64,000 nucleotides of DNA, taken from the NCBI GenBank assembly GCA_944358305.1, contig CALVQK010000004.1, positions 1 to 64,000 on the forward strand, read 5' to 3'. The translations under genes and the position numbers were made by a program. This DNA is from an uncultured Bacilli bacterium. GTDB taxonomy: Bacteria > Bacillota_I > Bacilli_A > RF39 > UBA660. The notes beneath the pieces are model-generated. The model searched no databases. It saw nothing but the letters and a program-made list of their open reading frames with translations, and was not told the DNA's origin. Of this stretch, positions 48,277-51,686 are shown one piece after another (the stretch's first letter is position 1; each line of letters starts with the position of its first letter).

Positions 48277-48873
48277 TTAGTCATATATACTATCTCTATC
48301 GTAACTAATTATTTCCCCAGTATTAGCATTAATTTTATAATCATATTCATAATTATTATAAGTAAAATCAACTTCATAAACTAAAATGCCATCATCATAT
48401 TCTGTCTCTGTTCTTAAAAATTGTACTAAATCAGCACTTAAATTAGCATGAGTTAATGCAATATTTCTAGCTTCTTCAACAGCAATACTAGCAGTATTAT
48501 TAGAACCATTTGCATTATCATTACTAGAATCATTGGTATTAGAATTAGAACTATTATTATCATTAATACTATTAGTAAAATATTTAAAATCAGTATAAAT
48601 AACATTTCCACCTTCAGCATCGGCTCTAGCATTAATTTTATATTCATAAACATTATTATGATAATATACTTCTACTTCATAAATACCTTTATCAAGTTCA
48701 AAATCAATATCTTCAAAATATAAATCACTTCTATTAACATTCATATTAGCAGCAATAATATCTTTCACTTCATTTTTACTAATAAATGTTGTTTTAAAAT
48801 AAATTAAGATAAGTAAAGCAATTACAACAAGTATACCAACTACAATAATAATTATTTTTCCATATTTTTTCAT
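48277..48873 (-). CDS. Membrane-anchored protein with two PepSY-like domains
   Basis: A 198-residue protein. Residues 5-27 are a transmembrane helix, followed by a first PepSY-like unit (KNEVKDIIAANMNVNRSDLY ... YEYKINARAD). A low-complexity Asn/Ser linker (about residues 104-128) comes next, then a second unit (AVEEARNIALTHANLSADLV ... YDYKINANTGEIISYDRD). PepSY domains are thought to inhibit or escort peptidases outside the membrane. An AGAGGA site precedes the ATG. Confidence 0.88.
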   Translation of the reverse strand: MKKYGKIIIIVVGILVVIALLILIYFKTTFISKNEVKDIIAANMNVNRSDLYFEDIDFELDKGIYEVEVYYHNNVYEYKINARADAEGGNVIYTDFKYFTNSINDNNSSNSNTNDSSNDNANGSNNTASIAVEEARNIALTHANLSADLVQFLRTETEYDDGILVYEVDFTYNNYEYDYKINANTGEIISYDRDSIYD

Positions 48874-48944: not shown

Positions 48945-50327
48945 CTACTTATATTTTTTCTTCTTTACTGCTTCATCTTTTTTACTAACAGTATCTATAC
49001 TAACAAGAGGAAAGCCACCTATATTTTCCTTATATAATGCCAAAGATTTTAAAACAATATTATTTATTTCTTCTTTACTTATTCCAAGAAATTCAGCAAT
49101 AGAACTTATAGAGAACTTTTTACCATCAACACAACCTAATATTAACCCCATAATAACAGCTTCTTTAAAAGATAACAATTGTAAAAACTCAGCATACTTA
49201 GGTATCTTAGAAAAATCAAGTTCTGTTATAACAGCACTTTCTCCAAACTTAACAGCAGTATTATCTAAAACATCAGAAGATATTTCTAAAGAAGCCTGTA
49301 CTTTTTTACTAGAAACCTCTTCTTTATCAAATACTTCTTGAAAACCACAAGGAGTAGATGCAATTGCACTCTCCTCACTATGTTTAGCCAACAATCTTTT
49401 CATTTTTGGTATCAAGTGTCTATAAAATCTTTTTGAAGCTTCTTCTGACCATTTCTCATCTGTAACTGGATTTTCTAAGTCTTTCCCATAACGCAACCTT
49501 ATTAACTCTCTTTCTTCCTCAGGTAAACTTAATATCAACGAATCTACCTCTTGTTTAGTAAAATTAGGAAAACAATCATATATTGTCTTCAAAACCCAAT
49601 GTTTTTTCTTTTTTCCATCTCTTTTATTAGTAACAAATCCAGTCTTAACACAATCAAGTGATTTAAAACTATCTAAATATTTGCCGTCTTCTAACCGCAA
49701 TTTTATCCTTTCTAAAGCTTTTCTAATAATTCTAGAAACATATGACTGTGACAAACCAAAAACACTTGCTATTTCTCTTTGTGTCATTACTTCACCATCA
49801 ATAAAGCCAAAATGCATTAAAACTACTTGCTTTTCTCTATCAGGAAGTGCTAACACTTCTTGTCTTATTGCATCATGTAATTCACATTTTTCATAATTAC
49901 CAGCAAGATCAACACTCTCATCAAAAATCCCATCAGCAATCTTCACATCATGACCTTCGCCATCACTAGATATTGTCTTATCAAGGCTTTCATCATTAAG
50001 ATATTTTTTACCTTTTCTCATAAACATAAGTATTTCATTATCAATACATCTTGATGCATAAGTTGCAAACTTAATATTTTTATTAACATCAAAAGTATCA
50101 ACACTCTTAATTAACCCTAATAGTCCAACGGATACTAATTCAGCATTATCATAAGGTGTACTAGCAAACTTAGTTAAAACTTCATTAACTACAAGCCTTA
50201 TATTATGCTTTATTATTTCATTTCTAGCATCAACATCACCATTATCTTTTTTAAAAAAATAATCATTAAGTTCATCTGAAGAAAAAGGTTTATCTAACCC
50301 CTCTAAAAATATTTTACTGTAACCCAT
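48945..50327 (-). CDS. SigE/SigK-like sigma factor with C-terminal HTH extension
   Basis: A 460-residue sigma-70 protein. Region 2 (about 35-110) reads RNEIIKHNIRLVVNEVLTKF, ELVSVGLLGLIKSVDTFD and FATYASRCIDNEILMFMRKG, as in sporulation sigma factors SigE and SigK. Region 4 (about 155-215) is LPDREKQVVLMHFGF with the helix-turn-helix TQREIASVFGLSQSYVSRII. Normal members end there. Here about 245 residues follow, with two further sigma-4-like pieces (SLPEEERELIRLRYG and SSIAEFLGISKEEINNI). AAGAGGAAATT precedes the ATG. Upstream DNA is bounded by inverted repeats beside a recombinase gene, suggesting switched expression. Confidence 0.88.
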   Translation of the reverse strand: MGYSKIFLEGLDKPFSSDELNDYFFKKDNGDVDARNEIIKHNIRLVVNEVLTKFASTPYDNAELVSVGLLGLIKSVDTFDVNKNIKFATYASRCIDNEILMFMRKGKKYLNDESLDKTISSDGEGHDVKIADGIFDESVDLAGNYEKCELHDAIRQEVLALPDREKQVVLMHFGFIDGEVMTQREIASVFGLSQSYVSRIIRKALERIKLRLEDGKYLDSFKSLDCVKTGFVTNKRDGKKKKHWVLKTIYDCFPNFTKQEVDSLILSLPEEERELIRLRYGKDLENPVTDEKWSEEASKRFYRHLIPKMKRLLAKHSEESAIASTPCGFQEVFDKEEVSSKKVQASLEISSDVLDNTAVKFGESAVITELDFSKIPKYAEFLQLLSFKEAVIMGLILGCVDGKKFSISSIAEFLGISKEEINNIVLKSLALYKENIGGFPLVSIDTVSKKDEAVKKKKYK

Positions 50328-50348
50328 AATTTCCTCTTTTCTTACTAT

Positions 50349-50367
50349 TTCTCAAAGTATTTTGCTT
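50349..50367. repeat. Left inverted repeat of putative invertible segment
   Basis: TTCTCAAAGTATTTTGCTT. Its reverse complement, with one mismatch, is at 50495-50513. It lies 21 bases before the sigma-factor start codon and outside its ribosome-binding site. Confidence 0.75.
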
Positions 50368-50494
50368 AAAGAAAAGTTAAAAAAAAGTAAATTTATCAAG
50401 CATTTTTTCATTTTTTCCCCATTTATTTTCATTAAAATATTGTAAAAGTTAACTAAAAGTGATATTATACAATTGTTTTTTTGAGAAAGTCTCA
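50368..50494. promoter_or_regulatory. Putative invertible promoter segment (127 bp)
   Basis: The segment between the inverted repeats carries a good promoter pointing away from the sigma gene: TTGTAA (50440-50445), 17-bp spacer, TATTAT (50463-50468), plus strand. On the minus strand a TATAAT (50464-50469) faces the sigma gene, but the nearest -35-like TTGAGA is 20 bases away. Inversion would turn the better promoter toward the sigma gene with a start point about 60 bases before its ATG. A small hairpin TTTGAGA-AAG-TCTCAAA lies at 50480-50496. Confidence 0.6.
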
Positions 50495-50513
50495 AAGCAA
50501 AATACTTTAAGAA
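50495..50513. repeat. Right inverted repeat of putative invertible segment
   Basis: AAGCAAAATACTTTAAGAA, inverted copy of 50349-50367 (18 of 19 positions, with a perfect 14-bp core). It lies 11 bases past the recombinase stop codon. Confidence 0.75.
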
Positions 50514-50524
50514 CAATAACATCT

Positions 50525-51622
50525 TTAAACATCATACATTGGATTTAACTGGTTGATAACTTTTACTTTACTTTCATAACCTGGATGCACATATCTTTGC
50601 AATGTTATATTTACATTAGAATGTCCTAAAATTTCGCTAAGAGTCTTAGGATCACACCCTTTCTCTATACATCTTGTCGCAAATGTATGCCTTAAAGCAT
50701 GAAAGTTATAATGATCAAGACCAATTTCTTTTACTATCTTTTTATATCTATTAAAATACGTTCTTGTCTCCATATACTTATTAGTACCAGTAATTAAAAA
50801 ATCATCAGGACCTCTACCTTCGCTAAATTTTAGTAAAAAAGTAATCATAAAATCCGGAATAGGTATTTCTCTAATCGAAGAAATTGATTTAGGTTGATCA
50901 ATAACTACAATAGTTTTCTTTTTAGCATTAACATCAGGATTTTTTATTCTTACAATTGTCTTTTTTACCTTAATTTTTTTATTTTTAATATCTATATTTT
51001 CCCATCGTAATGCACAAATTTCTCCTATTCTTAAACCAGTATATAAACAAAAATAAATACCAAAACTAATTAAATCCAAATTAGTTAACAATTCTTTTTC
51101 TAGCAAAACCTGTTCAAAAGGTTTAATAATCTGAATATCTTTTCTAGGCACCTTTGGCATAGAAACTTTTATACTAACTCCCGTAACTTTAAAGATTTGC
51201 TCTAAAATCACCAAAATATCTTTAACCGTTTTAGGACATAATCCTTCTTCAAGTAATTCTTCAGTATAATTATCAATTAGATCTAAATCAAGATCTTTTT
51301 TCTTTATTTTTGCAAACATAGGAATTATTCTCGATTTAACAGTATAATGATAACTTGAATAAGTTGACTTTTTACAACGTATTTTTACACTTCTAAGCCA
51401 CTTATAAATATAGTAACCTAAATAATCTTTATTATATATCAATAAATCATTTGCTAGTATCTTTTTATTTATCTCCTCCTTACACTTTTTTAAAGTCTCT
51501 TCATAAGTTTTCCCAGACACCGATTTATATCGTATTGTCCCATTAGGTTTATACCCGTAAAAATAGCGAGCTTCAAACCTGCCATTACCTTTCTTGTATA
51601 CATTAATTTTTTCATCGCCCAT
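50525..51622 (-). CDS. Tyrosine recombinase / phage-type integrase
   Basis: Site-specific recombinase of 365 residues. The N-terminal arm-binding region is KINVYKKGNGRFEARYFYG, followed by a SAM-like core-binding domain (WLRSVKIRCKKSTYSSYHY). The catalytic domain has Arg in YTGLRIGEICALRW, His-x-x-Arg in FHALRHTFATRC, His in LGHSNVNITL and the nucleophilic Tyr in LQRYVHPG, all intact. GGAGAAGG precedes the ATG at 51622, and the reading from 51667 lacks a site. No phage or conjugation genes surround it. Its gene ends 11 bases from an inverted repeat, so it may be the inversion enzyme for the sigma-gene promoter. Confidence 0.9.
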   Translation of the reverse strand: MGDEKINVYKKGNGRFEARYFYGYKPNGTIRYKSVSGKTYEETLKKCKEEINKKILANDLLIYNKDYLGYYIYKWLRSVKIRCKKSTYSSYHYTVKSRIIPMFAKIKKKDLDLDLIDNYTEELLEEGLCPKTVKDILVILEQIFKVTGVSIKVSMPKVPRKDIQIIKPFEQVLLEKELLTNLDLISFGIYFCLYTGLRIGEICALRWENIDIKNKKIKVKKTIVRIKNPDVNAKKKTIVVIDQPKSISSIREIPIPDFMITFLLKFSEGRGPDDFLITGTNKYMETRTYFNRYKKIVKEIGLDHYNFHALRHTFATRCIEKGCDPKTLSEILGHSNVNITLQRYVHPGYESKVKVINQLNPMYDV

Positions 51623-51656
51623 ACTACCTTCTCCTTCCAAATAAATAATGTAATAC

Positions 51657-51686
51657 AAAAAAGACATAGCACCTCGCTATATCTTT
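51657..51686 (-). terminator. Terminator of valS operon
   Basis: AGATATAGC and GCTATGTCT pair around a 5-nt loop with one wobble, followed by TTTTTT on the minus strand, between valS and the recombinase gene. Confidence 0.75.

Follow-up and report, generated by a model that had tools for sequence, protein, structure and literature searches.

The analyzed stretch of DNA (hereafter the window), which comprises 64 kb from an uncultured Bacilli bacterium, carries two intact and co-directional genes on the minus strand, one for a tyrosine recombinase (50525..51667, 380 aa) and the other for a SigK/SigE-like sigma-70 factor (48945..50327, 460 aa), with a pair of inverted repeats between them. The former, proposed here as an invertase, was assigned by Pfam Phage_integrase (E 1.8e-30) together with a SAM-like domain, and an internal start at 51622 appeared likely. 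As expected of an inverton, a linked site-specific recombinase with an open frame and conserved catalytic residues is present, R213, H323, R326, H349, and Y359 being invariant among its relatives. The closest solved structure by sequence was 6en0 (E about 2e-16 over the catalytic domain), which we take to be Tn1549 Int. The neighbors of the recombinase locus are valS and the sigma gene in the window, and serS at a second locus on contig C7 of the same genome. The ribosome-binding site of the sigma gene, AGAGG (50333..50337, minus strand), was read in the sequence and lies outside the invertible segment delimited below. A gene for a membrane-anchored PepSY-domain protein (48277-48873, minus strand) follows the sigma gene after 71 bp and may be co-transcribed with it; no such gene was present beside the sigma genes of two related genomes, G037 and G237.

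The sigma factor, which is the proposed switched gene product, was recognized by Pfam sigma regions 2 and 4. Its assignment as a SigK or SigE orthologue was rejected because all scores fell under the curated cut-offs (193 against 252 bits for the SigK subfamily, 181.8 against 298.65 for the SigK equivalog, and 171 against 339 for SigE), and by these scores the protein is a SigK/E-like paralogue, not an orthologue. It also possesses a C-terminal extension of about 230 aa, which is the sole copy in the genome, matched no Pfam family, and is partly common to the phosphoesterase encoded behind similar switches in G030, G034, and G017. The predicted model of the extension was poor overall (pLDDT 60.8); one part of it matched sigma region 4 (1ku3) with an rmsd of 1.1 over 55 columns (E 0.016), a likeness that we regard only as a suggestion.

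The left arm of the repeat (50349-50367) reads TTCTCAAAGTATTTTGCTT, and the reverse complement of the right arm (50495-50513) reads TTCTTAAAGTATTTTGCTT. The 19-bp inverted repeats described in the initial annotation were thus recovered, with agreement at 18 of the 19 positions and a 14-bp perfect core, as was the 127-bp spacer (50368-50494) between the arms; the sigma ORF, its ribosome-binding site, and the recombinase stop (50525) were likewise found to lie outside the segment, as had been claimed. Only one pair with a perfect match of 14 bp or more and a spacing of 80-200 bp occurs in the 64-kb window, and 0.25 such pairs per window were expected from dinucleotide-shuffled windows. The repeat pair by itself is therefore mildly unusual, of modest significance and unconvincing alone, and the strength of the case comes from comparative evidence.

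Comparison of relatives revealed a 23-bp family site pattern, TCTCAAAGT-N5-ACTTTGAGA, and two 23-bp sites (50350-50372 and 50490-50512) describe the functional unit better than the 19-bp arms do. Both window sites consist of a TCTCAAAG-like half, a 5-nt core, and a CTTTGAGA-like half, with identical cores in inverted orientation. The sigma-proximal recombination site, TCTCAAAGT-ATTTT-GCTTAAAGA (50350..50372, plus strand, core 50359-50363), matches the half-sites at 15/18 positions, and the recombinase-proximal site, TCTTAAAGT-ATTTT-GCTTTGAGA (50490..50512, minus strand, core 50499-50503), which was supported by a genome-wide motif scan, at 16/18. The invertible segment between the cores accordingly spans 135 bp (50364..50498), in line with the lengths of 113-173 bp across 27 family invertons and with the two homologous segments whose orientation differs between species.

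The core was identical within the pair and inverted in orientation in 27/27 pairs (18 loci), a comparison that is biased in that most of these pairs had been found as perfect repeats that include the core. The core comparison was therefore repeated with the half-sites only, which yielded 30 site pairs 90-220 bp apart at the 18 loci; identical inverted cores were observed in 25 of the 30 and direct ones in none, and the remaining five were cross-pairs involving the sites of neighboring switches or extra single sites. As all the cores are asymmetric, inversion is fixed as the outcome of recombination. Eighteen different cores were found among the 27 invertons, and the window genome itself uses ATTTT here versus ACATT, TAAAA, and GTAAT at the contig C7 cluster; with such differing cores, the switches within this genome would not be expected to recombine with one another. 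Because a strict whole-genome site-pair pattern missed known pairs owing to their degenerate half-sites, a single-site scan allowing three mismatches was used instead. When 35 genomes of the genus were scanned in this way, the seven sites of the window genome all fell at its two recombinase loci, and the only matched pair outside recombinase carriers was that of G014, an orphan cassette in the same chromosomal slot as the C7 cluster. Two sigma homologues (L194 and L199) showed one related site, TCTCAAATTATTTAAnTTTGAGA, before the start codon with no visible partner, which may reflect a distant partner or an operator.

Inside the segment, the plus-strand promoter reported by the initial annotation was confirmed as a sequence match, TTGTAA-17-TATTAT with an extended -10 TG (50440..50468), which points away from the sigma gene (OFF), places its -10 30 nt from the core, and matches 9/12 consensus bases, making it a moderate promoter. 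It outscored every other site in its direction (shuffle p 0.04), and the sigma-ward direction was as poor as had been stated, its best site being at chance level (p 0.77). By sequence match, the segment thus holds a promoter in one direction and none in the opposite one. The same geometry recurs in the family, where 22 of the 23 OFF segments have the -10 of their best away-pointing promoter 28-44 nt from the core; the 27 family switches comprise 23 OFF, three ON with the same promoter geometry, and one unclear.

Where the recombinase was at least 48% identical and sufficient downstream sequence was available, the repeat pair was present at 17/17 loci, a count that leaves aside contigs ending too soon and loci with a truncated recombinase gene. 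No repeat pair was found at the short paralogues L096 and L130 (about 316 aa), so that the constant association of recombinase and repeats, proposed earlier as a check, held among these 17 loci and failed at the two paralogues. Among more distant recombinase relatives, any repeat was found in 4/59 and this motif in none, compared with 1% in a shuffled control, and no additional strong member outside the family emerged from 385 genomes sampled across the order. A phage origin of the recombinase clade was considered and is unsupported, since viral contigs gave only remote relatives (23-28% identical). Separately, 20-bp inverted repeats 91 bp apart were noticed 58 bp behind a 32%-identical recombinase in an Anaeroplasmataceae bin (L155, 7946-8076), and may form an independent inverton whose site is unrelated.

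Direct evidence for inversion came from comparison between species. The segments preceding a metallophosphoesterase gene in G030 and G034 were 96.7% identical when one was inverted and 53.8% identical in direct alignment; their flanks, aligned without inversion, were 98-100% identical. In this pair the outer half-sites were fixed and the inner half-sites exchanged, a pattern which places the crossover at the core. Similarly, the segment before a 153-aa gene on contig C7 of the window genome was 85.2% identical to that of G014 when inverted and 52.1% when direct, with a flank at 85%. The initial annotation would have been contradicted by relatives in a single orientation; for the system as a whole, both of these pairs are inverted with unchanged flanks. 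In addition, the G020 contig breaks off at the final base of the left site, where the assembly would be expected to branch if the sample contained both orientations. Both directly seen inversions involve cargo other than the sigma factor, namely the metallophosphoesterase gene and the 153-aa gene. Of the four sigma copies, those in three genera were OFF and that of G037 was unclear, its two directions having similar scores, and no sigma switch in the opposite orientation was found among sister species in the genera of G237, G037, and G319; these genomes are metagenome bins, and each orientation is thus an assembly consensus.

Sigma homologues behind such switches were identified in four genera, represented by the window, G037, G237, and G319. 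The initial annotation would likewise have been contradicted by an absence of the repeats where recombinase and sigma gene are both conserved; the neighboring genes in G037 and G237 both come with repeats, and in G319 the repeats persist even beside a recombinase decayed to a remnant, other recombinase copies being present elsewhere in that genome. Such repeats were absent at the sigma homologues of G160, G103, G063, G320, G243, G013, G019, and G029, and the switch is thus an addition to a wider sigma family. In the recombinase tree, the three sigma-neighboring enzymes were not grouped together, some forks in that region being open, and G110 and G237, which belong to one genus, carry differing cargo; both observations fit cargo exchange.

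Other cargo was observed throughout the family. In the window genome (G000), the second cluster on contig C7 (L065, 2916-9563) combines a recombinase of its own (60% identical) with three invertons, of which one is ON and two are OFF, placed before genes for an amidoligase, a gamma-glutamyl cyclotransferase-like protein, a 153-aa protein, and a Tad4-like protein (PF25186, Thoeris inhibitor family). The chromosomal slot between serS and the MFYDETQ gene (L062, L063, L065, and L208) holds different cargo among sister species: the phosphoesterase in G030 and G034, the amidoligase cluster in the window genome, and the 153-aa gene without a recombinase in G014. AbiEi_4-TPR proteins and an AAA_5 ATPase also occur as inverton cargo (L081, 10168-13739; L085, 8371-11714; L097, 9903-11957; L090, 8787-10520). 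This AbiEi/AAA cargo has a faint flavor of anti-phage defence, and a search of an anti-phage defence library gave weak matches only.

With the site anatomy, the matched private cores, the promoter geometry, the catalytic residues, the recurrence in four genera, and the inversion of homologous segments all observed, we consider it highly probable that the locus is an inverton in which the recombinase flips a promoter segment before the sigma gene. In the proposed mechanism, the recombinase would bind the two 23-bp sites through the inverted half-sites TCTCAAAGT and ACTTTGAGA around the 5-nt core, and recombination at the core would flip the 135-bp piece between them. This piece would carry a single vegetative-type promoter, which in the assembled orientation is predicted to aim at the 3' end of the recombinase gene and to leave the sigma gene OFF; once inverted, the promoter would start a predicted leader of ~60 nt and enter the sigma gene via the fixed ribosome-binding site (ON). 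Cells would consequently differ as to whether an additional SigK/SigE-like sigma factor, and with it a regulon, is expressed. We infer that the sigma segment of the window flips in cells by the action of the adjoining recombinase; the segment promoter, recognized from its sequence, is presumably functional, and the sigma factor presumably drives a regulon.

Three other explanations were weighed against this mechanism. That the repeats, lying between the recombinase and sigma genes, are merely a transcription terminator or an RNA hairpin, a possibility raised by the initial annotation itself, is highly improbable: long-range folding of the minus strand does give a stable stem (z -4.2), and at some family sites a perfect short hairpin precedes a T run, but the window region yielded no terminator-like site, and a terminator requires one hairpin, whereas two sites separated by 113-173 bp and sharing an asymmetric core were observed. 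A terminator would, moreover, explain neither the conserved inner promoter nor the inversion between species. The sites might alternatively be cassette ends for a recombinase that mainly moves cassettes in an integron-like or transposon-like manner, with inversion as a side reaction. The differing cargo at the slot between serS and the MFYDETQ gene and the closest solved structure, Tn1549 Int, both speak for such an activity; the sites, however, are paired and inverted around promoters and do not form direct repeats around genes, and the differing cores among invertons would hinder exchange, which renders this explanation very unlikely.

It is also conceivable, albeit unlikely, that the segment does invert but controls the sigma gene mainly after initiation, through a leader-RNA or Rho-type effect on transcription arriving from the recombinase operon. 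Recombinase and sigma genes are co-directional, making read-through possible, and the flagellar switch of Clostridioides difficile operates in this way (PMC5386303; PMC7446863); in most family segments, however, a near-consensus promoter occupies a constant position and direction relative to the sites, a feature not present in the C. difficile flagellar switch. Beyond the inverton at this locus, we lean, with less assurance, toward the broader view that uncultured Bacilli possess lineage-specific "addressed" invertons, each flipping independently of others in its genome by means of its own 5-nt core, with sigma factors as recurrent cargo and a whole regulon rendered phase-variable by direct promoter inversion.

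The inverton family recurs in roughly ten genera of uncultured gut Bacilli, where surveys saw few inversions: one inversion signature was reported among 18 unique Bacilli species (PMC5903667), and the median was 0 invertons per genome for Bacillus-like Firmicutes in a defined gut community (PMC11892184). Genomes of the host's relatives are labeled Tenericutes, Bacilli, or Firmicutes. The cargo of the family consists of regulators and enzymes, not mainly of surface structures, and with a sigma factor as a repeated target, one 135-bp flip could alter a whole regulon. The clear site code, comprising palindromic half-sites and a variable core, also makes it easier to find invertons in other genomes of the lineage.

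Among known systems, the nearest precedent is the flagellar switch of C. difficile (RecV; flgB operon with sigD), a 154-bp segment with 21-bp inverted repeats, which resembles the present locus in that a short invertible DNA and a site-specific recombinase place an alternative sigma factor, together with its regulon, under phase variation (PMC5386303; PMC7241687). That switch reaches SigD indirectly, its segment containing no functional promoter and acting post-initiation via Rho, with sigD placed within the large flagellar operon (PMC7446863), whereas here a promoter-bearing segment lies directly before a dedicated sigma gene and next to its own recombinase. A switch of the C. difficile flg type was thus rejected for this locus, in view of the promoter-like site, recognized by sequence match, at a conserved geometry inside the segment. 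In the literature searched, much subscription literature being outside its scope, no precedent was found for an invertible promoter directly before a dedicated sigma gene, a result that is accordingly provisional. The invertible promoters of gut Bacteroidales, such as those of the upxY polysaccharide loci, likewise consist of a promoter between inverted repeats, frequently with a recombinase upstream, and inversion persists in one whose recombinase has decayed (PMC13114119), paralleling the G319 copy; they differ in their surface polysaccharide cargo, site family, and lineage, the cargo here being sigma, metallophosphoesterase, amidoligase, and AAA or AbiEi-like genes. In E. coli, the 314-bp promoter switch fimS is similarly inverted by tyrosine recombinases (FimB and FimE) and differs in its fimbrial cargo (PMC9993118). 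The Tn1549 integrase moves a conjugative transposon, and none was identified here from the neighboring genes read at the window and contig C7 loci. The mechanism class, that of classical invertible promoters, is thus already known, and what is new here is the lineage, the site family, and the cargo.
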